Below, in pieces: positions 25,286-51,235 of a stretch of 51,264 nucleotides of DNA. The translations under genes and the position numbers were made by a program. Source of the DNA: a virus. The DNA lies in IMG/VR virus record IMGVR_UViG_3300009181_000105, positions 1-51,264 of that record; one strand, 5' to 3'. Position 1 is the first letter of the stretch, and every line of letters starts with the position of its first letter. Below the pieces are notes generated by a model. It did no database searches. It saw only the letters and a program-made list of their open reading frames with translations, and was not told where the DNA came from.

Positions 25286-27226
25286 CTACACCGTCAGATT
25301 GGTATATTCCACCCCATCATAGGTAGACAATCTCCAGAAGGTGTTAGGGACAACCCAGTCATTGAGCGTCTTACCTAACCTAGGGATCTTTAATGGCTTG
25401 TTAGGGTACATGTGGGTGTAGGAGGCGTGATCTGTGCCTTCCCAGACAGCGCCATAGTCAGAGGGAAGAGAGCCATCAAAGTACTCTGTCGCAGTCTGTG
25501 ACTTCTCAAACTGCACAAGATCTAAACGGTAAGTACCAGCGCGAGTAAAGGAAATCTTAACCTTTGCATACGACACCTCTGATCCTGAGTCAGTTAGTGC
25601 AGTCAGACTTACTCGACTAAAAGAACTATTAATAGTGAACTCGGACGCAAAATCTTCTAGTAAGTTATTGCTTGCATCAAAAAACTCTATAGTTCCAGTA
25701 ACTTTGACTGAGTTACTTGACGAGACGTAGAACGATAGGGTGTAGTACTTACCTGCAGTTACTGGGATGTTGTAATTAGTCTTGATGTTTCCTGTGGTAG
25801 CCACAACAAACTGTCCACTGTAAGTACCTGAGTAACCGTCAGTTGGAACTGCAGCGTTTTGAGTAAAGGTGGCACCAGTGGCTGTCCAGGTAGAAGCGTT
25901 TACTTCAAATGATGGATTCTTAATGTAGTTTATTTTTGAAGAGTCAAGGAATACAGAAATTGCTCTTGCTTCGTCATAGGCAACAGCGGCTCCAAGTTGA
26001 AGGCATACTTGATCTAAGTAGTATGTACCTGCTGCACTGTAAGCAATTTGAATACTTACATAGGATGCATCTGCTGGAGTTGTAAAGGTTTTTGAGGCGC
26101 TCTTCCAAGTGTTGTTTGCAGCCACTGCTGTTGCTGATTGTGTAGTGCCTGTGATGGTAGCGTTCTTGTCATAAAACTTTACAGAAAGAGTGATGTTTCC
26201 AGCGCTAGAAGGTGACTTAAGTTTGCACGATACTGTGTACTCGGTGCTTGGAAGTACTGGTACCCCACGTGTTATTGGTGCGGTATTACCTAGTTGCATA
26301 GCGCCAGAAGAAGCAGCAACAAGTTTACCTGTGTAGACGTTATCAATGACGTTGGTTCCAGTTGCTGGAACTTGCTCAGTACTAGATGTTAGGACTGCAT
26401 TTGTTTTTGTCCAATTACCAATAGAGTTATAAAAAGTTGAATCTTGTACCGATAGAAGTAAGTTAGTTGACAAAGTTGTTGTTGGTGCAAATCCTGTAAG
26501 GGACTCTGCGTAAGCATCTATACCGCTCTTCATTCCTTTGTGAGAGTACATATACAACGCTTCACGAATAAGTCTTTTTTGATTCTTAACTGGTAGTGCT
26601 GGTTCTGGAACAAGTCCAACACTGAAAGAGTTTTGCTCTAAAGTTGAAAAGGCTATTCCCTCTGAAGAATGCTGTGGTCTTAATATATCTAGTTGAGAAA
26701 GGAATTGTTCGTGAGTAAAAGCGATTCCTCCCATAAAGTTATAGAGAGCAGAAGTCTCATCCGTAACTCCAAGAGGGCTCTGGATCTCACTTGTAAATAC
26801 TTTAGGAATAATATCCATAATTTTTCTATGAACACCGTGGTTTAACGGCATCAAGTCTGTAATTTGTCCAGCATTAACCCAAATCTTTGCATCTGTAAAT
26901 AAAAACATTGTGTAGTAAACCTGACGCCCATTTACAATCGGTGTTTGATCTGGGTTATCTTCTCCATCTACAAAATAAGATCTACTGACTGTTCCTTCTG
27001 TAGCAGACTCTTCCCATATAGTGAGGCCATCTTCAGAGTTTTCAGGGAATCCAAATTGATTTCTTACAAGTTTAATCTTTGTAAAATCACCTGTTGGAGA
27101 TTGCCATTCTACTTGAATCTTTATAAAATCTAAGACAGTAATAGCCATAGGCTCAACTGAGTAAGCCAACTTTGGGGTTACGCCGTACTTAGCACCACCA
27201 TAAACAACGTTACCGTATTTTGCCAC
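25286..27226 (-). CDS. Baseplate protein (gpI-like) with carbohydrate-binding-like domains
   Basis: A 646-residue protein. Residues ~1-270 resemble P2 gpI/minor baseplate proteins (IMDIIPKVF, DILRPQHSSEG, REALYMYSHKGMKSGIDAYAESLTG). Two beta-sandwich domains follow (about 275-420 and 425-590) with the NWTKTN / NPSFEVNASTW openings and the YYLDQVCLQLG / YRLDLVQFEKS closings typical of CBM4/9-like jelly rolls. A conserved C-terminal knob (NDWVVPNTFWRLSTYDG) ends the protein. It probably sits at the baseplate rim and binds cell-surface sugars, as inference from domains. Confidence 0.75.
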   Translation of the reverse strand: MAKYGNVVYGGAKYGVTPKLAYSVEPMAITVLDFIKIQVEWQSPTGDFTKIKLVRNQFGFPENSEDGLTIWEESATEGTVSRSYFVDGEDNPDQTPIVNGRQVYYTMFLFTDAKIWVNAGQITDLMPLNHGVHRKIMDIIPKVFTSEIQSPLGVTDETSALYNFMGGIAFTHEQFLSQLDILRPQHSSEGIAFSTLEQNSFSVGLVPEPALPVKNQKRLIREALYMYSHKGMKSGIDAYAESLTGFAPTTTLSTNLLLSVQDSTFYNSIGNWTKTNAVLTSSTEQVPATGTNVIDNVYTGKLVAASSGAMQLGNTAPITRGVPVLPSTEYTVSCKLKSPSSAGNITLSVKFYDKNATITGTTQSATAVAANNTWKSASKTFTTPADASYVSIQIAYSAAGTYYLDQVCLQLGAAVAYDEARAISVFLDSSKINYIKNPSFEVNASTWTATGATFTQNAAVPTDGYSGTYSGQFVVATTGNIKTNYNIPVTAGKYYTLSFYVSSSNSVKVTGTIEFFDASNNLLEDFASEFTINSSFSRVSLTALTDSGSEVSYAKVKISFTRAGTYRLDLVQFEKSQTATEYFDGSLPSDYGAVWEGTDHASYTHMYPNKPLKIPRLGKTLNDWVVPNTFWRLSTYDGVEYTNLTV

Positions 27227-41674: not shown

Positions 41675-42208
41675 CTAGTTTGTAAGGTCCTGAAATTGTG
41701 GATCATTAACAAGTTCTTCAGCATTGACCTGGTTGCAATCAATAGTAACTACTGAGTAGCGCTCTTTATAAAGTCCTCTAGGAAGGACACGAGTAGGAAC
41801 GAATACGGCGTCGCGGAATACGACACGGTCTTTAATATGTAGCGCTGGATCTGTGATCATTGCTGGAAGAAGTCTATTGATATCTGCCACAGCAACTACT
41901 AGGCGCAATGTATCTGTGGTGTAGTAACCACGCTCATTCATGATGTTAGTACCACGAAGTTGTTGCGCCATGATCACAGGTAGTTTGAATGGCTCGTTCC
42001 ATCGACGACCCTTGCCATCTTCCTGATTGGAGACGTCATAGATTGGATCTACGAAGGTGTCGTAGTCTGCGGCTAGGGCTGCATCATCCCAGAGCCACCA
42101 GTCAACCTCAGTACCTACGGGGTCACGGAGTTCGTCAACGATGCCTTCATCCATTGACATAGTCTCGTAGTCGATCTTGAATCGACCCTGTACTTTGTTA
42201 CCACGCAT
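41675..42208 (-). CDS. Head-tail connector/neck protein (177 aa)
   Basis: A 177-residue protein with DYETMSMDEGIVDELRDPVGTEVDWWLWDD at the start (split at ~14-43), a beta-rich centre (TTDTLRLVVAVADINRLLP) and YKERYSVVTIDCNQVNAEELVNDPQF. The pattern is that of head-completion/stopper proteins in actinophages. Position between fibre genes and the neck/sheath genes is compatible. Assignment is tentative. Confidence 0.55.
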   Translation of the reverse strand: MRGNKVQGRFKIDYETMSMDEGIVDELRDPVGTEVDWWLWDDAALAADYDTFVDPIYDVSNQEDGKGRRWNEPFKLPVIMAQQLRGTNIMNERGYYTTDTLRLVVAVADINRLLPAMITDPALHIKDRVVFRDAVFVPTRVLPRGLYKERYSVVTIDCNQVNAEELVNDPQFQDLTN

Positions 42209-42232: not shown

Positions 42233-42263
42233 CTGAGAAAAAAGTATTAAGGGGCGATCTCTA
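42233..42263. repeat. 31-bp direct repeat, copy 1
   Basis: Exact 31-bp match to 47261-47291, with a further CCTATC-N4 similarity at the adjoining left side. The minus-strand copy covers the last codons (ending EIAP) of the gene at 42247-42600 and a T-rich stretch after its stop. There is no GC-rich stem before the T run, so I do not call it a terminator. Confidence 0.85.
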
Positions 42264-42600
42264 TCTCTACCCAAGAGGTAGTTTCTTCATCCCAATCGTA
42301 TACCTTGTCATCTGTAGGCTTTGCTATTGGGGCTTCCCATTTGCAAGTTTCTTCATTTAACACCCATGATGGGTAAGGTTGTGGCGCAATAAATGCGTCA
42401 AGTTCTTCACTGTATGTAAAGCCAATTCCAGCATAATTTTTACGTATGTTGTTATTGTAAGATGTACGTTTGCAAACTTGATTACGAAAATTTCCATACC
42501 AAACTTCAGGGGTCAGACCTTCAATAAGTTCTGTTTCATCCTTACCTGGGATAACCTCTGTAACGATGTTGTTCTCATCTAAAAATGCGTAATGTGCCAT
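42247..42600 (-). CDS. Tail-fibre-associated protein with KNYAGIG motif (117 aa)
   Basis: Begins MAHYAFLDENNIVTEVIPG. The centre holds NIRKNYAGIGFTYSEELDAF (52-71), then APQPYPSWVLNEETCKWEAP and a repeat of Trp-Asp-Glu. This is a family I know from cyanophage and pelagiphage virions, where it is often encoded beside fibre genes. Paralog of the 94-residue protein at 44320. TAATG with the upstream adhesin gene; ends EIAP like the 99-residue protein at 47275. Confidence 0.75.
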   Translation of the reverse strand: MAHYAFLDENNIVTEVIPGKDETELIEGLTPEVWYGNFRNQVCKRTSYNNNIRKNYAGIGFTYSEELDAFIAPQPYPSWVLNEETCKWEAPIAKPTDDKVYDWDEETTSWVEIEIAP

Positions 42601-44015
42601 TAGATAGTCACCGTTCCTGTTCCTGCTGTAAATCTATAAACTCTGTAACCTGAACGGCTTGGTTGGTCGTAGGTTAGCCCACCGTCAATAGAAGAAAGCG
42701 CCCTGTATGAATCAGGATAAGCAATAATAACTACACCAGAACCACCAGCCTTTGCAGTGTTACTTGAACCACCACCACCACCGCCAGTATTAGGAGTACC
42801 TGCATATGCTGTACCTCCACCGTTACCTCCACCACCTGTACCGCCTGTACCGCCACTTCCTTGTCCTTGTGAACCAGCACCGCCACCTGCATATGCTGTA
42901 GAGGTACCCGTTATACTAGTTGATGAACCAGCGCCACCATTTCCTCCTCGGCTGTATGCAACAGGGTCACCTCCAACAGCACTAGCGCCACCGCCACCAG
43001 CACCTGAAGCATTTGTTGGACTGCTATCAAAACGACCTGTACCTCCACGAAAACCCTGACCATTTATACCAGTTCCGTAAGAGTTATTTATGCCAGCACC
43101 TCCACCACCTGAGCCACCATTTCCTCCTGATGTTGCACTGCCTCCTCCTTGACCACCTCCAGTAGCAGACACACCTCCAAATACAGATGCAATTCCAGTT
43201 GGAGAACCACTACCACCACTGCCAGCAACACCGCCAGCACCAACAGTTACTGTGAATGAACCAGAAATTGATGTAGAAGATTCTAAGTAACCTCCAGCGC
43301 CACCACCACCACCACCATAACCTGAGTAGTTTCCTCCACCGCCACCAGCAATAACCAAATAATCAACTGATGTAGGAACAGGAAGTTGTGGAGTTACAGA
43401 GTTAGAAGCGCTAGACGCTGTAGAAGTACCATTAGCATTTGTTGCAGTTACAGTAAATGTGTAAGCAGTTCCTGCTGTTAATCCAGAAACAGAAATTGGG
43501 CTCGAAGCACTTGTTCCTGTTATAGAACCAGGAGATGAAGTTGCTGTAAAAGTTGAGACCGCTGCGCCACCAGTAGCATTTGCTGTAAACGGTACAGATG
43601 CAGTTGTAGAAGAGGGAGATGTTACAGTGCCAATAGTAGGAGCCTGTGGAACAGTAGTTGCTGTTATAGATCCAGAAGCAGATGTTGCAGGAGACGTTCC
43701 TGTTGAGTTAGCACCAGTCACAGCAAAAGTGTAAGAAGTCTGAGACTGTAGACCAGCGACTGTTACTGGAGAAGAGGCCGCAGTACCAGTAAATGATCCT
43801 GGGGTACTTGTTGCTGTATAGGTAGTTACTGTACCGCCTGTTGTATTAGGCGTAAATGCAACTGTTGCAGCGCCGTTATTGTATGCACGGCTAGTACCTA
43901 CGTTAGTTGCTGCACCAATAGTAGGTGCATCTGGCACATCGGATATCTCCGTAATGGCGGTATTGCCGTCAGGAGTGCCTTCAATGCGCTCATCTTGTGC
44001 TCTACGAACTGACAC
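42600..44015 (-). CDS. Glycine-rich adhesin with two fibronectin-III domains (471 aa)
   Basis: Residues 1-25 carry a conserved fibre N-terminus ending ISDVPDAPTIGA. Two fibronectin-III domains follow (~30-115, ~120-210). After DYLVIAGGGGG comes a long Gly-rich stretch (~220-430) with many GGGG runs and GGAGG, closing with GSGVVIIAYPD. This is the Gly-rich domain pattern of phage adhesins (compare T-even gp38, whose poly-glycine sandwich binds receptors). Start GTG with AAGGAG upstream. Confidence 0.85.
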   Translation of the reverse strand: MSVRRAQDERIEGTPDGNTAITEISDVPDAPTIGAATNVGTSRAYNNGAATVAFTPNTTGGTVTTYTATSTPGSFTGTAASSPVTVAGLQSQTSYTFAVTGANSTGTSPATSASGSITATTVPQAPTIGTVTSPSSTTASVPFTANATGGAAVSTFTATSSPGSITGTSASSPISVSGLTAGTAYTFTVTATNANGTSTASSASNSVTPQLPVPTSVDYLVIAGGGGGNYSGYGGGGGGAGGYLESSTSISGSFTVTVGAGGVAGSGGSGSPTGIASVFGGVSATGGGQGGGSATSGGNGGSGGGGAGINNSYGTGINGQGFRGGTGRFDSSPTNASGAGGGGASAVGGDPVAYSRGGNGGAGSSTSITGTSTAYAGGGAGSQGQGSGGTGGTGGGGNGGGTAYAGTPNTGGGGGGSSNTAKAGGSGVVIIAYPDSYRALSSIDGGLTYDQPSRSGYRVYRFTAGTGTVTI

Positions 44016-44042: not shown

Positions 44043-44276
44043 TTAAATGACGAGAACGGCTGCTTCTTCTGCAGTAAGAGGAGTACCAGCGACTAACTTA
44101 GCCTTTGCTGATTCCTTCAGTGCTGCCTTTGCTGCTGCTTCTTCTTCTCGTGCTGCTTCTGCTTCGGCAAATGCTGCTGCATCTGCTTCCATCTGAGTGA
44201 TCTCTTCGGCTGTGAGTTCAACGATTGACTCTTCGCCTGTTGAGCAGTCTACAATGACCTTAGTTGGAACTGACAT
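44043..44276 (-). CDS. Ala/Glu-rich fibre-associated small protein (77 aa)
   Basis: SVPTKVIVDCSTGEESIVEL, then a long Ala/Glu helix (EEITQMEADAAAFAEAEAAREEE) and TPLTAEEAAVLVI. The same design (short strand, acidic Ala-rich helix, LTxEEAxxL tail) is common next to phage fibre genes and may be an assembly chaperone. RBS AGGAGAT before the ATG. Confidence 0.7.
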   Translation of the reverse strand: MSVPTKVIVDCSTGEESIVELTAEEITQMEADAAAFAEAEAAREEEAAAKAALKESAKAKLVAGTPLTAEEAAVLVI

Positions 44277-44319: not shown

Positions 44320-44604
44320 TTATTCTTCTGTGCGTAGAACCCAGCGACAAGTTTCCTCATCAAGGGTGTAATCTGCATGTGGTTCTGGGCGAGGAGCAAT
44401 AAATGCATCACGGTCTTCGTCGTAGTACATACCGATACCTGCATAATTCTTACGGATGTTTCCGTTGTATGAAGTCTGAATCCAACGTCCACCAAGGCCC
44501 AAATCATCAGCCAAGAACTCTTGACCACGATGCTCTTGGGCATCAGGAACTACTAGTACACGGACTACTTCTAGTCTCTCGTCAACTTCTGCAAAATGTG
44601 CCAT
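44320..44604 (-). CDS. Tail-fibre-associated protein with KNYAGIG motif, second copy (94 aa)
   Basis: Paralog of the 117-residue protein at 42247: both share MAHxAxxDE at the start, NIRKNYAGIGxxYxExxDAFIAP (split: 47-56 and 64-70) and LxEETCxW near the end. The copy is shorter and has no C-terminal Trp-Asp-Glu repeat. Each copy follows a Gly-rich adhesin gene, so the pair may be a duplicated adhesin/accessory unit. Confidence 0.75.
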   Translation of the reverse strand: MAHFAEVDERLEVVRVLVVPDAQEHRGQEFLADDLGLGGRWIQTSYNGNIRKNYAGIGMYYDEDRDAFIAPRPEPHADYTLDEETCRWVLRTEE

Positions 44605-45896
44605 TAAACTGCGTACCTCACAATTACTAGACCTGAACCACCCGATTTACCAACTACGCCATTGTTGTCTCCACCAGCACCGCCACCAGTATTTGCATAG
44701 CCATTCGTTGCAGCCGCACTTCCAGCACCACTCTCACCACCAGCACCGCCACCACCAGAGCCGCCTAAACCACCAGTGTTATTAGGAGTAACGCCGTTCC
44801 AAGCAGAACCACCACCACCACCTGCAATGTACCCCGCTATGCCAGTACCAGTTGCAGTATGCCAAGTTGAGTAAGTGTTTATTCCAGCGCCACCAGCACC
44901 GCCACGAGAGCCAACGCCACCTGCGCCACCTGCGCCACCAGCACCACCACCACCACCTGAATAATAAGAACCTCTAGCGCCACCGCTGTTGCCTTGACCT
45001 GCAGTGCCAGTACCTACCGAACCACTACCAGGTGCGCTTTGTCCACCACCTGAGCCACCATTTGCTTGGTAGGTACCGCCACCAACTGCTGCTGTTAATG
45101 CACCAAATACAGAGTTAGAACCATTGGTGTTAGAACCGCCACCAGCACCTACGGTTACTGTGTAGCCAGTTGCAGTGAGAGCGTTACTTGCTGAGTAATA
45201 AACACCACCAGCACCTCCGCCACCTGAAACAGAGGTTGTAGTTCCACCGCCACCTGCTACTACAAGCACTGCTGCAGTCAAAGACTGTGAAGGTGTAAAT
45301 GTTCCAGATTGACGGAAGGTGTGATAAATATAGGTTCCATCAGTAGTGATATCTCCACCAGTTGCTTTTTCTGTAATTTGTTGGGAGGGCACCTCTACAC
45401 CATAAAGAGTAACCGTTGAGTACTCCGCTAAATTCGCATTAACAGCAGCAAAAGTTAAAGAGGTAACTGCTGCTGTGCTTGATTGCACTACCGCATTCAT
45501 TGTCATATAAGCAGTAGTAGAGTTTTTTTCAGTAACAGAGTCAACTAAGTAATATTTTGCAGTGCTACCAGCGTAGTTAGGGATAAGAACATCAGTGCTA
45601 GAAAAGATGCTTGAACCAGCGCTTGCTCCAACAATTCTTCCCGACCAAGGTTGTTCGTATGCGGTAGAGGCAGTAGATGCTGTAGAACCATTTCCCATTA
45701 AAGGTTTGTAAGTGTAACCTGAAGAACTTGAGTTTACCGTTAAACTTAAGCCATCTTCATCGGCTGCACGAGTTGAACGCAAAGACAGTTTTAATACTAG
45801 GTCTGTGTAAGTTTGTGGGATGTTAGAAAGAGTAATGCTGGAAGTTCCTCCACTTCCCACAGTTACTTTTTTTAATGCTATGTATGTATTAGCCAT
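44604..45896 (-). CDS. Glycine-rich adhesin with fibre N-terminal domain (430 aa)
   Basis: Residues 1-170 are the fibre beta-sandwich module seen in five other proteins here (IPQTYTDLVLKLSLRSTR, DVLIPNYAGSTAKYYLVDSVT, AEYSTVTLYGVEVPS). It is followed by HTFRQSGTFTPS and AAVLVVAGGGG, then a long Gly-rich stretch (~215-415) and GGSGLVIVRYAV at the end. Same overall design as the 471-residue adhesin but with a beta-sandwich instead of fibronectin domains. Confidence 0.85.
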   Translation of the reverse strand: MANTYIALKKVTVGSGGTSSITLSNIPQTYTDLVLKLSLRSTRAADEDGLSLTVNSSSSGYTYKPLMGNGSTASTASTAYEQPWSGRIVGASAGSSIFSSTDVLIPNYAGSTAKYYLVDSVTEKNSTTAYMTMNAVVQSSTAAVTSLTFAAVNANLAEYSTVTLYGVEVPSQQITEKATGGDITTDGTYIYHTFRQSGTFTPSQSLTAAVLVVAGGGGTTTSVSGGGGAGGVYYSASNALTATGYTVTVGAGGGSNTNGSNSVFGALTAAVGGGTYQANGGSGGGQSAPGSGSVGTGTAGQGNSGGARGSYYSGGGGGAGGAGGAGGVGSRGGAGGAGINTYSTWHTATGTGIAGYIAGGGGGSAWNGVTPNNTGGLGGSGGGGAGGESGAGSAAATNGYANTGGGAGGDNNGVVGKSGGSGLVIVRYAV

Positions 45897-45899
45897 TAT

Positions 45900-46394
45900 T
45901 TACGCCGCCAATATTCCGTAGAGGTTAAATGTGGTGCCAACATCAAAACTATATCCGCTATCTGTATACAAGTTTAGTGTATCCACAGCAGCCGTAGACC
46001 TCCAAAGATTTGCAACTGCAGATACTCCATTTGCCCCATTGCCAGTTTTGTTTAATATTTGTTTGTACGAGGTAGTACTTGAATAGTTATTTATAAAAAG
46101 AGTATTGATATATCCAACAGTTGTTCCTAAGTAACCATAAGTACCAACGACCGCTCTAGAATCACTTGTGCCACGAGTGCTTTGAGAAGAGGTTCCATCA
46201 GCACCTAAAGTAGTTCGTGAGTAGTTATTCCCAGTATCGTTATTAATACGACAAATAAGACTATCTGCACTTGTTGTCTTTCCTGTAACAACAAGAACAA
46301 GGTCAGTATAAGTAGATGGTATAGAACCTAAATTTACAGAGGCTTGAGATGCTGTAAGAGATACGCTTACAATTGCATTATATGTCAATGCCAT
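45900..46394 (-). CDS. Tail fibre beta-sandwich protein (164 aa)
   Basis: A single copy of the fibre module: SLGSIPSTYTDLVLVVTGKTT-like opening (residues ~20-40), RINNDTGNNYSRTTLG, NTLFINNYSSTTSYKQIL and WRSTAAVDTLNLYTD...FNLYGIL. Virion fibre subunit; binding target unknown. Lies 3 bases downstream of the 279-residue relative. Confidence 0.75.
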   Translation of the reverse strand: MALTYNAIVSVSLTASQASVNLGSIPSTYTDLVLVVTGKTTSADSLICRINNDTGNNYSRTTLGADGTSSQSTRGTSDSRAVVGTYGYLGTTVGYINTLFINNYSSTTSYKQILNKTGNGANGVSAVANLWRSTAAVDTLNLYTDSGYSFDVGTTFNLYGILAA

Positions 46395-46396
46395 GA

Positions 46397-47236
46397 TTAC
46401 CCCTTCATTCCATAGAGAGCAATTTTGGTATATTGAGAAAAGGTAGTTGAATCAACAGTCAAATCTATTCTAGAAACCGCCGCTGTGTTTTGCCAAAGGC
46501 CACTAAAGAGCCCCACTTGTCCTCCTCCATTATCGTCATAATTTCCAAATTGACGAAGAGTTGTATACTTGCTTGTATTGGCATAATCTAAAATGTCAAT
46601 ATTTCCTGTACTAAAGTTATAAGGCTGCCCACCGCTTCCAGAATCCGTTATTGTTCCACCATATGCGGCAGTTTGAGTTGCAGCACCGCCAGATAATGCG
46701 GAAGCACCGTTTCCTACCAAATAGTGATAGGAGTAATTAGAGCCAGTATCACTGTTAAATCTTATGCGACAAGGAACTCCACCGCCTGCTGTTGAACACT
46801 TTGCAAAAAATCTAATTTGAAGATGAGTGTAAGTAGAAGGAATTGAGGTAAATGAGATTGTTGCTTGAGTGGTTGAAAGTGTAGTAGTAGCAATAGAGTC
46901 GTAAGCAAGTGCTGTGGGACTAACAGAACTAGAGGCAGCAGATGCTGGACCTGTGGCTGTTGAATTTGTTCCAGTAACCGTAAATGTGTAATCAGTACCT
47001 AAACTTAATCCAGTGACAGTAATAGGAGAGGCGCCAGTACCAGTAATTCCGCCAGGTGAAGATGTAGCGGTAAAGGTAGTTGCAGTTCCTCCAGTAACGG
47101 CTGCTGTGTAGGCAACAGTAACTGTTCCATCTGTCAGTGCTGCCACAGCGCCAATGGTAGGAGCATCAGGTACGTCAGCGATCGCAACACCACTCTTAGT
47201 GATGCTGGATGCATTTGCTCTCTTGATATTAGCCAT
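46397..47236 (-). CDS. Tail fibre protein: fibronectin-III + beta-sandwich (279 aa)
   Basis: N-terminal AIADVPDAPTIGAVAALTDG leads into one fibronectin-III domain (~22-105), then one beta-sandwich module (~110-279: SIPSTYTHLQIRFFAK, RFNSDTGSNYSYHYL, GLWQNTAAVSRIDL...KIALYGM). The same two-domain design as the protein at 50372. Confidence 0.8.
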   Translation of the reverse strand: MANIKRANASSITKSGVAIADVPDAPTIGAVAALTDGTVTVAYTAAVTGGTATTFTATSSPGGITGTGASPITVTGLSLGTDYTFTVTGTNSTATGPASAASSSVSPTALAYDSIATTTLSTTQATISFTSIPSTYTHLQIRFFAKCSTAGGGVPCRIRFNSDTGSNYSYHYLVGNGASALSGGAATQTAAYGGTITDSGSGGQPYNFSTGNIDILDYANTSKYTTLRQFGNYDDNGGGQVGLFSGLWQNTAAVSRIDLTVDSTTFSQYTKIALYGMKG

Positions 47237-47260
47237 GAGGCTTATTGTCTCCTATCGGTT

Positions 47261-47291
47261 CTGAGAAAAAAGTATTAAGGGGCGATCTCTA
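47261..47291. repeat. 31-bp direct repeat, copy 2
   Basis: Exact match to 42233-42263. As there, the minus-strand copy covers the EIAP C-terminus of the upstream small gene and a T-rich tail before the next gene. The two copies flank a ~5-kb segment containing five to six fibre-related genes. Confidence 0.85.
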
Positions 47292-47574
47292 CTACAGGGA
47301 ACTTAACAAAGCCATCTTCAAGTACTGCCTCTGGAGAGAGTTCCTGAGCAGCGGCAAGCATCGCTGCTGCTGTGGTCTCTGTTACAGACCAGGCAGTCAA
47401 AGCGCTAGTGTTAATTGAACCTCTAAGCAGGTAGCAGTAGATCAGTGTTGCTGAGTCAGATACATCACCTGTAGCAAAGACTGGCTCAATACGAACCTCA
47501 TCAGTATTCACAGTGAATGTAGGATCAGTACCTTCACCGTTTTCCCACTTTAACTTCCATGTGTAGTACTTCAT
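47275..47574 (-). CDS. Fibre-associated small protein (99 aa)
   Basis: MKYYTWKLKWENGEGTDP, TFTVNTDEVRIEPVFATGD and a helix AAAMLAAAQELSPEAVLEDGF, ending VVEIAP. I recall relatives in cyanophages near tail-fibre genes. ATGA coupling with the coiled-coil gene upstream. Its last codons lie in the 31-bp repeat. Confidence 0.65.
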   Translation of the reverse strand: MKYYTWKLKWENGEGTDPTFTVNTDEVRIEPVFATGDVSDSATLIYCYLLRGSINTSALTAWSVTETTAAAMLAAAQELSPEAVLEDGFVKFPVVEIAP

Positions 47575-48161
47575 GCTAACTCCTTCTGAGTCTGTCCTGT
47601 AATCTGCTGCATCTCTTGGGAGACTGCACGGATTCCGCCCTCTGGTGTCATTTCAAGGGCACCAATCTGACGAAGTGAATCTAGGTGTGCAGCCTGTGCC
47701 TGAGTGCCACCGATAGCCTCTAGTGTAGACTGACGACTTAATCTCTTGTTCCAATAATCTGGCTGTGCTGCTTCAATCTCTTGGCGAGTGTATTTATGCT
47801 CAAAAGAGTTATAGATATTCATTAACATATCCAACTCTCTAAAAGCGCCAATTCCAACAAGGCGAGTCTGTTCAAGTCCCAATTCTTTGATCTGAGCATC
47901 AATCTCATCGATCTCATCGCCAGTTTCACGAAGTTTATTGATTTCAATCTCAGTCTTCTTCATTTCAAGACTGACTGTCTTTATGGTGTAGTAGAGAGAC
48001 TGAAGTTCAATGACGCACTGCTGGTAGCGCATTTCATCTGTATCGTGCTGATTCACAACAAACTTCTCTAACTGAAAGTCAGAGCGTGACTGTTGAACTT
48101 CTGCCATCGCTAGCAAAATATCGGGTGTGAATTTTTCGGTTATATCAGGTAGTAGTTCCAT
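47571..48161 (-). CDS. Coiled-coil fibre-associated protein (196 aa)
   Basis: Start at 48161 (MELLPDITEK), with AAGGAAC upstream and just after the stop of the propeller gene; the longer reading to 48218 would overlap that gene by 47 bases. Mostly helical, with a long coiled coil (~50-115) and a C-terminal EIEAAQPDYWNKRLSRQ, GGIRAVSQEM. I know similar proteins from aquatic phages beside fibre genes; function unknown. Confidence 0.7.
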   Translation of the reverse strand: MELLPDITEKFTPDILLAMAEVQQSRSDFQLEKFVVNQHDTDEMRYQQCVIELQSLYYTIKTVSLEMKKTEIEINKLRETGDEIDEIDAQIKELGLEQTRLVGIGAFRELDMLMNIYNSFEHKYTRQEIEAAQPDYWNKRLSRQSTLEAIGGTQAQAAHLDSLRQIGALEMTPEGGIRAVSQEMQQITGQTQKELA

Positions 48162-48171
48162 ATATTGTTCC

Positions 48172-49857
48172 TTATAGTGTTCCTGAGTCGGCAAAGCCTG
48201 CTGGGTTACTTCGTGCACTAGCCATTGTTACAGAGGTCGATGACACGGCGTCGTTAGAGTAGGCCAACTTTTCAATTGAAGACAATCTTGCATTAGAGGT
48301 GTTTTGTCCTCCAGCAGCGTACCCAGCAGTTCCTGAGTTAGCAAAGGCTGTATGGTATTGACGCGGAGTAGACATTCCTCCACTTACAGCAGAAACGCTA
48401 TCTGATGAGAATGTTATTTTGTCAATTGTTGTAAAGTTGTTATTTCCACCTAAGAAGTAACCCGCAGTTCCTGAGTTAGCATGAGCCGCATTTCTTGCAT
48501 TTAGAGAACTCAAAGTGGCAGAGGTTGTTGATTTTGAGTCATTAGAAAAAGTAATTTTATCAATGTAACTAGTAAGACTGCTTGTGTCTGTTCTGTTTCC
48601 TCCAGCAGTGTAGCCAGCAGTACCGCTGTTAGCCATTGCTCCAGTATTTCTATAAATGACGGCAGTTAAAGTTGCAGCAAGAGTTGTCCTAGCATCATTT
48701 GAAAAAGCAATTTTATCTATTGCAGCAGTTGTACCGCCACCAGTACTGCCTCCTAGTACATATCCAGCAGTACCGCTGTTAGCCATTGCTCCATGTTCTT
48801 TTCTAGCAGTTGCTAATGTAGTGCCTAGAGTAGAGACCACAGCGGTAGAGAATACAAGTTTGTTTATAGTAGTAGACGGTGATTGGCTTATTCCTGTTAT
48901 GTATCCAGCAACTCCACTGTTAGACATAGCAGCAGATTCTTGTGTATTAGCACTTAGAGTTGCACTTAATGTACTGCTAGTTTCTGCAGGTAAAGATATC
49001 TTTTCGATAATGCTAGTTGCGCTAGAAGAAGTTTCGCCACCAGCAGTGTAGCCCGCCTTTGGATAAGCAGTAGGAGTGGCACTATTAGAGGCAGAAGACG
49101 CTGCAGAAGTTCCTAGTGGATTTGCAGCCGTTACAGTAAATGTGTATCCAGTACCATTTGTTAACCCTGAAACTGTTACTGGACTTGCTACACCAGTTCC
49201 AATAATTGAGCCAGGGGTAGAAGTAACTGTAAACAAAGATGCGGTCTGTCCCGCTGGAGTAAATGCTACAGAGATTGCTCCAGTAGTTACTAAATCAGTA
49301 GCAGTAACGCTAGTAGGTGCACTAGGTGCTCCTGATACATTTTCTTTAAATACTCCATAGAGAGTTGCAGTTGAGTATTGGGCAAAATTACTTCCAGTAC
49401 CAGAAGTCAATGTAATAGATGTAATTGAGGATGTGTTTGACCACAAGTTAGACATAAGCATAATCAATGCTTCATAAGCGGTTGCTGAATTATTTTCCGT
49501 AACGCTGTCAGAGTTAATAGATTTGTAATTTGAAGAGGTGTAGTTTGGTATACATATCTCTGCATTTCCAAACGTATTTGTTGTTGCTCCAGATGCTGGC
49601 ATTGCTCCAACATATTGACTAGAACCACTGCTGGCCCTAGCACTTGTTACGTATCCTTGAAAATAGCGATACGCATAACTAGTTGCTGACCCATTATATG
49701 ATATATATATATCATCATCAGCGCCTGCGCGAGTTGACCTAGCACAGATTTTTATAACTAAATCAGTGTACGTTTGTGGAATAGAGGTAAAAGCAATGCT
49801 AGAAGCACCGCCTGCTCCTACAGTTACTGTTTGAATCTTCTTATGTGTGGTAGCCAT
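48172..49857 (-). CDS. Tail fibre protein with six kelch-like propeller repeats (561 aa)
   Basis: Residues 1-170 are the fibre beta-sandwich module (IPQTYTDLVIKICARSTR ... YSTATLYGVF). Residues ~175-265 are a fibronectin-III domain. From ~270 to the end are six repeats of 46-51 residues with consensus GYxxGG...IDKIxFSxD...L...R....ANSGTA. This suggests a six-bladed beta-propeller at the fibre tip. Propellers commonly bind sugars or proteins, so this may be the receptor-binding protein; inference. TAATG start. Confidence 0.85.
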   Translation of the reverse strand: MATTHKKIQTVTVGAGGASSIAFTSIPQTYTDLVIKICARSTRAGADDDIYISYNGSATSYAYRYFQGYVTSARASSGSSQYVGAMPASGATTNTFGNAEICIPNYTSSNYKSINSDSVTENNSATAYEALIMLMSNLWSNTSSITSITLTSGTGSNFAQYSTATLYGVFKENVSGAPSAPTSVTATDLVTTGAISVAFTPAGQTASLFTVTSTPGSIIGTGVASPVTVSGLTNGTGYTFTVTAANPLGTSAASSASNSATPTAYPKAGYTAGGETSSSATSIIEKISLPAETSSTLSATLSANTQESAAMSNSGVAGYITGISQSPSTTINKLVFSTAVVSTLGTTLATARKEHGAMANSGTAGYVLGGSTGGGTTAAIDKIAFSNDARTTLAATLTAVIYRNTGAMANSGTAGYTAGGNRTDTSSLTSYIDKITFSNDSKSTTSATLSSLNARNAAHANSGTAGYFLGGNNNFTTIDKITFSSDSVSAVSGGMSTPRQYHTAFANSGTAGYAAGGQNTSNARLSSIEKLAYSNDAVSSTSVTMASARSNPAGFADSGTL

Positions 49858-50372
49858 TATGCACTCGCAATTCCATAGAGTGTGAAAGTTGAACCAGCAG
49901 CAAAAGTACCGCTTGATTCAGAAGTAAAAGTTAAAGAAGTAATGGCTGCCGTGCTACGCCATAGTCCTGCTGTCATAAGAGTGTACTGGTTAGTATCAAT
50001 ACTGCTACTTCTTGATAAACATGATTTATAAGTGGTGGCATTAGCGTAATTAAAAATATCAATAGTTATAGGTGTCCAAGCATTTCCACTTGTAGCACTT
50101 GTAAAACCTACTTTTTGTATAGCAACACTGGTTCCTCTAAAACTATTAGCAGATGAGCCTGCGTACCCAGCAGCACCAACCCAAGAGTAATTAGTTGCAG
50201 TATCGGAATTATATTGCAATTGTGTTGCGTAACCATCACCAACACTATTTTTTACTTGAAGGACAACTCGTAAGTCTGTATAAGAACCACTAATAGAAGA
50301 AAATGTAACAGATGCTGTAGCGCTTGCTAGGGTGTTAGTAGCAAGCGGTGTGTAAGTAATTCCTGCAGCCAT
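49857..50372 (-). CDS. Tail fibre beta-sandwich protein (171 aa)
   Basis: A single fibre module: SISGSYTDLRVVLQVKN, QYNSDTATNYSWVG, DIFNYANATTYKSCLS, WRSTAAITSLTFTSE...FTLYGIASA. Close to the 164-residue protein in design. TAATG couplings on both sides. Confidence 0.8.
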   Translation of the reverse strand: MAAGITYTPLATNTLASATASVTFSSISGSYTDLRVVLQVKNSVGDGYATQLQYNSDTATNYSWVGAAGYAGSSANSFRGTSVAIQKVGFTSATSGNAWTPITIDIFNYANATTYKSCLSRSSSIDTNQYTLMTAGLWRSTAAITSLTFTSESSGTFAAGSTFTLYGIASA

Positions 50373-51235
50373 TATGCCATCACCCCATAAAGTGCAAAAT
50401 GACTAGCGCTTGTAAAACCAGCACCAGAACCAGAAAGAAGAGTTATTGAAGTAATTGCAGCGGTTGATAACCATAATCCACTTACTAATCCTACGCCCCA
50501 AAAGTTTCCGTTGTAAATATTGTTTGTTTCTACGCCTGTAAACGCACGAACAGTTTTGTTTTTAATTGTGTTGGTATAGTCCAAAATGTCTACAACGCCT
50601 GTTCCATAAGTACTTGTTGCACCATTAGAGGCAGACATTAAAAAGTTATCTCCCATATAAGTAGCAGCGGCTGTTCCAGCACTTACTCCTGACCCTTGAC
50701 CCCATAAATTATGGATTCTGTAATTAGAACCCGTATCACCATTTATTCTAATGGTAATTCCATCAGCAATAGTGGTCTGAGCCCAACTAGTTTTAGCCAT
50801 GTATCTAATTTGCAAATGAGTGTACGTGCTTGGAATTGAACTAAAGGTTATACTGCTAGCAGTAGAAGAAGTAGTAGTAGCAATAGAGAAGTAAGAACCA
50901 GCGGTGACAATTGCAGTAGATGCAGAGGCAGCACCTGCTGGACCTGTGGCTGTTGAGTTAACTCCAGCAGCGGTAAATGTGTAAGAGGTTGCATCACTCA
51001 AGCCCGAAACTGTTACAGGTGATGCTCCAGTAAATGTGGCTGGAGAAGTTGTTGGTGTGGGCGTAATAACAAAAGTAGTTGGTGTTCCACCAGTAGCAGC
51101 AGCAGTTGCTTCAACAGTAGCGGTGCCATCAAACGCACTTGTTACCGCTCCAACTGTAGCCCCATCTGGAACGTCGGCAATAGGCGTGTTACCGCCATTA
51201 ACGCTCTTTAATGAAACCTTGTTAGTGATAGTCAC
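50372..51235 (-). CDS. Tail fibre protein: fibronectin-III + beta-sandwich (287 aa)
   Basis: Short N-terminus with PIADVPDGATVGAVTSAFDG, one fibronectin-III domain (~20-110), then a beta-sandwich module (~115-287: SIPSTYTHLQIRYMAK, RINGDTGSNYRIHNL, GLWLSTAAITSITLL...FALYGVMA). Nearest relative in the window is the protein at 46397. GTG start at 51235 with AGAGG upstream. The remaining bases to the window end (51236-51264) hold a TAACTAGTTA palindrome and no gene I can support. Confidence 0.8.
   Translation of the reverse strand: MTITNKVSLKSVNGGNTPIADVPDGATVGAVTSAFDGTATVEATAAATGGTPTTFVITPTPTTSPATFTGASPVTVSGLSDATSYTFTAAGVNSTATGPAGAASASTAIVTAGSYFSIATTTSSTASSITFSSIPSTYTHLQIRYMAKTSWAQTTIADGITIRINGDTGSNYRIHNLWGQGSGVSAGTAAATYMGDNFLMSASNGATSTYGTGVVDILDYTNTIKNKTVRAFTGVETNNIYNGNFWGVGLVSGLWLSTAAITSITLLSGSGAGFTSASHFALYGVMA

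Follow-up and report, generated by a model that had tools for sequence, protein, structure and literature searches.

Three-gene adhesin sets in freshwater tailed phages: ordered paralogues, slot-wise exchange of their central bodies and a putative heterotrimeric head

Genes and Features of the Locus

The linear IMG/VR virus record IMGVR_UViG_3300009181_000105 was analysed over its full 51,264 bases, a stretch called the window in what follows. It encodes tail sheath, baseplate, DNA polymerase A and DnaB genes, from which we concluded that it belongs to a contractile-tailed phage; no close DNA relatives of the baseplate region were found among named phage records. The genes described here sit in the tail/fibre module with structural genes adjoining, the location typical of phage receptor-binding proteins, and form a cassette on the minus strand with two sets of three adjacent genes (trios), whose members are called P1, P2 and P3 according to their position and carry one β module each. 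The first trio consists of P1, the putative anchor (50372..51235; leader MTITNKVSLKSVNGGNTPIA, weak FN3, module 50375-50911; 188 bits against the P1 profile, 95 above the next class), P2 (49857..50372; module alone, no leader, its start overlapping the P1 stop by 1 nt; 172 bits against the P2 profile, margin 83) and P3 (48172..49857; module 49342-49857, followed by FN3 and by a C-terminal tip of kelch-like repeats; 217 bits against the P3 profile, margin 111). The second trio has the same organization, with P1, again the putative anchor (46397..47236; leader MANIKRANASSITKSGVAIA, FN3, module 46400-46921; 207 bits, margin 92), P2 (45900..46394; module alone, 2 nt past the P1 stop; 167 bits, margin 90) and P3 (44604..45896; module 45390-45896, then a Gly_rich_2 tip; 201 bits, margin 112).

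The same cassette encodes a single-chain adhesin (42600..44015, minus strand) with the leader MSVRRAQDERIEG, two FN3 domains and Gly_rich_2 but no module. Directly after it comes a phrog_7759 protein (42247..42600, minus strand), whose paralogue (44320..44604, minus strand) follows the glycine-rich P3 tip of the second trio; homologues of both also directly follow glycine-rich genes in relatives, and their products are possibly tip partners or assembly factors. The two genes between the trios (47275..48218, minus strand), of 99 aa and 215 aa (the latter phrog_1409), were absent from the cassettes of all relatives listed but the near-identical G001. Downstream, the variable cassette is bounded by a conserved gene (41675..42208, minus strand), for which a best match was found in every sheath relative listed. 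A 77-aa protein ending in PLTAEEAAVLVI (44043-44276) recurs beside the trio in sheath relatives. Unannotated proteins of 232-246 aa, alike in kind (e.g., MKIIFTDIQNPKGVLEKPKPAIEYI), lie within the adhesin cassette of relatives (L453 9161-11334, L457 14576-15286, L455 12159-12857). Downstream of the baseplate genes, a 646-aa protein (25286-27226) has two CBM_4_9 carbohydrate-binding matches and is likely another host-contact protein.

The β Module and Its Three Positional Classes

The initial annotation had described one fibre module with shared motifs in six genes, and the ORFs at 44604, 45900, 46397, 48172, 49857 and 50372 do hold one copy each, about 170 aa long, with 12 invariant alignment columns across the six. 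All 15 pairwise local scores exceeded every one of 300 composition-preserving shuffles (z 7.4 to 33.5), and a profile built from any five modules recovered the sixth with E values of 1e-27 to 1e-42 (Z set to 1000), so that low-complexity composition, which the annotation had named as a possible source of the similarity, is excluded. Pfam and PHROGs matches also bore out its description of modules combined with FN3, glycine-rich and propeller parts: fn3 was matched in the genes at 42600 and 48172, weakly at 50372 and below the cut-off at 46397, and the tip of the gene at 48172 matched Kelch_4 (E 9e-5) and phrog_19111 (E 1e-18), suggesting a kelch-like propeller. The DVPD(A/G)xTxGA motif read as a shared leader is the first strand of the FN3 domain, and the real leaders are the roughly 20 residues ahead of that strand.

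The module itself has no family model in Pfam, PHROGs or NCBIfam, which matched only the attached FN3, Gly_rich_2 and kelch-like parts, and a PDB sequence search with the module profile returned nothing at E ≤ 1. AF2 modelled the P2 protein of the window (49857) with twelve strands (pLDDT 91, pTM 0.88). Foldseek found no match to the module in the PDB at E ≤ 0.001, which leaves the fold without a solved-structure anchor; in BFVD there were 108 matches at E ≤ 0.001, some of them to predicted Stf-repeat, collagen-repeat and fibre proteins. In viral fibre proteins and collagen-repeat proteins, the part that matches the fold is the predicted head. Distant modules occur in single copy at the C-termini of other proteins (L028 5403-5864; L041 2081-2536 and 5738-6232; L048 16864-17367; L086 gp29) and are possible homomeric relatives of the ancestor. 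In the isolate singleton Streptomyces phage Intolerant, gp29 ends in a single module-like C-terminus, and a trio is absent.

A phylogeny of the module, the check proposed with the annotation, gave one clade per gene position, as described for the tail of Dishui Lake virophage 2 (DSLV2), with support of 100/99, 100/98 and 100/99 for P1, P2 and P3 in the careful tree; a tree of the central bodies only showed 3 label changes among its 732 leaves. The three clades could not be rooted with the distant single-copy modules because of long branches. Inside the window, the best matches run from position to position (46397-50372, z 33.5; 44604-48172, z 33.1; 45900-49857, z 20.6), and a subunit of one trio lies no nearer to its counterpart in the other than to the subunits of other phages, which shows that the second trio did not arise by recent tandem duplication. 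What had been taken for one module duplicated six times is instead a three-gene set present twice. Between trio members the mirror-tree r is 0.385-0.388, and co-inheritance of whole trios was rejected as a sole explanation, the nearest neighbours of P1, P2 and P3 agreeing in only 7-8% of trios.

Trios across Environmental and Cultured Phages

In the loci retrieved with the module, its genes came in directly adjacent threes, on the same strand and in the fixed order P1 (FN3-module), P2 (module alone) and P3 (module plus tip), which is the DSLV2-type arrangement of three consecutive homologous genes. For the class profiles, gene position in the first scan served as the training label; they were then applied to the loci of five later scans and to a GTDB contig, with a median class margin of 99 bits over 902 modules. 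Of 360 IMG/VR loci with strong modules, which include overlapping stretches of one contig and amount to 244 trios distinct by sequence, 320 contained nothing but complete P1-P2-P3 sets, from one to three per locus, in place of the one gene per head of a homotrimeric tail fibre. Another 39 were cut by stored ends and one (L304) had its P3 split by an apparent frameshift (888-1334); the order was broken in none, and no interior loss of a single member was found among the 360. In three loci (L010, L039, L042), P3 is fused via a linker to P1 of the next trio, consistent with heads in series. Among the sheath relatives of the window, some have no trio (G003, G004, G017), some have one (G012, G013, G016) and one has two (G005); the gain, loss and swapping of these genes among relatives agree with the shuffling fibre locus which the initial annotation had proposed.

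The trio also occurs in the cultured Planktophila phages LanE43AprE7 (OX376640) and LanE43AprF5 (OX376641), directly after two glycine-rich ("collagen-like") genes; both records were deposited, unannotated and with no host given, as "Caudovirales sp. ct2KA10". Their variable island was published with "three proteins encoding DUF2541" (ISME J 2023, PMC10202952), and these are this very trio, whose paralogy, positional classes, assembly and exchange are not described in that paper. Pfam HMMs did not reproduce the DUF2541 name for the window proteins or, among the families listed, for 65 P3 members. Both phages infect strain LanE-43 (PMC10202952) and their trios are 100% identical in nucleotides over the parts compared; one host and one trio are consistent with a putative role in receptor binding and host range.

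The architecture of the subunits differs systematically between positions. Over the 244 trios, P1 carries an N-terminal extension and never a C-terminal tip, whereas P2 and P3 begin at the module, are never N-terminally extended and bear C-terminal tips in 21/244 and 37/244 cases, respectively. Four leader types are shared by P1 and single-chain adhesins, most of the latter glycine-rich, and none occurs on P2 or P3, a distribution from which the leader may be read as a virion-docking tag, with one tag per head. Stop and next start overlap or lie ≤14 nt apart in 226/235 and 228/236 trio junctions. The initial annotation proposed that the locus could supply several alternative receptor binders. 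On this view the genes would be separate adhesins in an operon, each with its own receptor and all retained because all are useful. Such an arrangement would be in keeping with the independent exchange of bodies described below; it is nevertheless quite improbable given the zero interior losses among 360 loci, the putative docking leader missing from P2 and P3, the near-universal stop-start coupling and the covariation between the proteins. The positions form ancient separate clades and ordered trios across freshwater phages, and the trio rule together with the three clades identifies the genes as a unit of three ancient paralogues rather than as six binders acting independently. The more likely products of the window are two heteromeric heads and at least one single-chain glycine-rich adhesin.

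Slot-Wise Exchange of the Central Bodies

Comparison of trios between phages showed directly that pairs are alike at high identity in one subunit and not in the other two. Taking bodies of >75% nucleotide identity as common, 36 trio pairs had one position (slot) in common, 6 had two and 3 had three, and no body was shared across slots, where the maximum nucleotide identity was 0.585. Conserved flanks surround a replaced body in the pairs L060/L169, L204/L401, L055/L069 and L253/L263. The converse, a common body with no flank homology, was found for P1 (L149/L184, L173/L186), P2 (L060/L338, for which only the upstream flank was compared) and P3 (L178/L247, L279/L316). The data are mostly metagenome contigs from a collection which looks dereplicated, and swapping could be simulated by assembly artefacts or by hyper-divergence in place. 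We regard this as very improbable: in swapped pairs the flanks, too, have diverged (70-95%), bodies are common at 76-93% in contigs without flank homology in all slots, and L060 and L169 are ~97% identical around their replaced P3 body. The breakpoints leave the first ~30-100 nt and the last ~40-50 nt with the backbone, and these retained end segments are the strands which bear the inter-subunit couplings.

Covariation between Subunits and Structure Predictions

The couplings were obtained by mean-field DCA on 244 paired trios, a small number for 495 columns (27 effective at 50% identity). In all three pairs, the strongest inter-protein couplings lie at the N- and C-terminal strands, with top scores of 1.81 (P1-P2), 2.85 (P2-P3) and 2.06 (P3-P1). 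Random re-pairings, three per pair, gave top scores of 1.16-1.41 and in one case 1.83 (P3-P1), and the true pairing was higher, narrowly so for P1-P2. When partners were replaced by those of the nearest relative, most top scores dropped strongly, which argues that plain relatedness is not the source of most couplings; P1-P2 dropped less, from 1.81 to 1.13, and is the weakest side of the covariation. Peaks between the N-strand of one subunit and the C-strand of the next reached z 8.6 (1-2), 12.9 (2-3) and 9.5 (3-1), against 2.7, 4.5 and 5.9 in the reverse direction, though cyclic and flipped orientations were not separated when summed over all positions. N-N strand couplings were also strong (z 8.3, 11.8 and 9.3, respectively). 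Some linkage could also come from recombination blocks, but this would not produce the observed N(k)-C(k+1) pattern.

That P3 is in turn coupled to P1 speaks for a ring that closes, and it bears on an arrangement in which P1, P2 and P3 each form a homomeric ring, the rings being stacked along one fibre and all needed. Phage fibres are usually homotrimers, such as those of A-1(L) and T5, stacking would equally account for the fixed order and the co-conservation, and an anchor on P1 with a tip on P3 suits a linear order. Stacked homotrimers are unlikely all the same, for the P3-P1 couplings equal those of P1-P2 and P2-P3 in strength and lie at the same homologous positions, tips occur on P2 and not on P3 alone, and P2 has no N-terminal stalk.

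In L036 the three trio genes stand in one frame and can be read as a single chain. AF2 gave this chain a pTM of 0.68 and a pLDDT of 84, with only four rows in the P3 alignment; set against a roughly estimated pTM of ~0.35-0.4 for loose domains, the model favours a defined mutual placement of the subunits and is not decisive. For the trio fold, an alignment mixing P1P2 and P2P3 rows was abandoned because MAFFT placed P2P3 rows onto P1P2. Most Foldseek matches of the single-chain model in BFVD were to single modules, and no natural chain with three modules stood out clearly.

A Model for the Assembly of the Adhesin Head

From these observations we infer that the product of each trio is probably a single adhesin head, an obligate heterotrimer with 1:1:1 stoichiometry and with P1 as its anchor. 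Exchange of its bodies proceeds slot by slot. The three β-sandwich subunits, homologous but different, would close a ring about a pseudo-threefold axis through a class-specific interface made of the N- and C-terminal strands. P1, the sole carrier of a leader, of types also found on single-chain glycine-rich adhesins, would dock the head on the virion; P2 and P3, which lack the leader, would join by assembly, and they are the only subunits with a glycine-rich or kelch-like tip at the C-terminus. Receptor contact is probably made by the central bodies, which have the most variable loops and recombine between phages within each slot. With bodies exchanged separately in three slots, specificity would become combinatorial, in a three-chain, antibody-like design.

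Extending this reading, it seems rather probable that widespread adhesins of freshwater tailed phages are obligate heterotrimers of ancient paralogues which draw on per-slot pools of bodies and generate new host specificities by combining three parts that recombine independently while the assembly frame stays constant. Receptor binders of phages are commonly taken to be homotrimers, and a single gene is used to predict host range. Were the binding surfaces instead assembled from three chains that are exchanged separately, it is the combination that would set host range; single-gene predictors would fail for these phages and diversity would multiply across slots. The trio would also be a natural case of paralogues locked in a heteromer and yet recombining slot by slot. 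Its presence in many environmental phages, including cultured lytic "Ca. Planktophila" phages, makes the model directly testable.

Comparison with Known Systems

The closed head proposed here resembles the receptor-binding fibres or heads of T5 (pb1) and A-1(L) (gp33/gp34) in being trimeric and placed at the virion surface; those are homotrimers, with one gene for three identical chains, whereas the trio has three genes. In the host complement protein C1q, the paralogous A, B and C chains form one heterotrimeric globular head, and collagen stalks are present on all three chains. The likeness to the proposed head lies in the three paralogous subunits of one heterotrimeric head; Foldseek against the PDB found no fold link of the module to C1q. 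Phage DEV has a hetero-component receptor-binding fibre encoded by a three-gene operon, gp56-gp55-gp54, with overlapping stop/start codons, in which a gp56 homotrimer bears one gp55 and one gp54 (mBio 2026, PMC12892993). The operon and its overlapping codons are alike; a ring of three homologous subunits is absent from the DEV fibre.

The principle of a three-gene heterotrimeric fibre is already published for DSLV2, whose tail is encoded by three consecutive homologous genes with one clade per position (J Virol 2025, PMC12724248). Co-expression, native PAGE, negative stain and an AF3 model (pTM 0.66) are reported to show a 1:1:1 heterotrimer formed in vitro, the tail binds Synechococcus cells, and its diversification was reported to parallel that of the capsid (PMC12724248). 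The trio shares the three consecutive homologous genes with one clade each. The DSLV2 tail has a collar domain (PF07484) and a T4 gp37-like needle and is carried on a virophage capsid, whereas the trio lies in tail loci of tailed phages; PF07484 was matched neither in the six window proteins (E ≤ 0.1) nor among the families listed for 65 P3 members, and T4 gp37 was not among the PDB matches listed by Foldseek. Relative to DSLV2, what is new is a module unrelated by these tests, found in tailed phages and in hundreds of environmental contigs, although it may have been described earlier elsewhere. Also new are the exchangeable tips, the combinatorial exchange of bodies slot by slot and, as the leader distribution suggests, anchoring through a single subunit.
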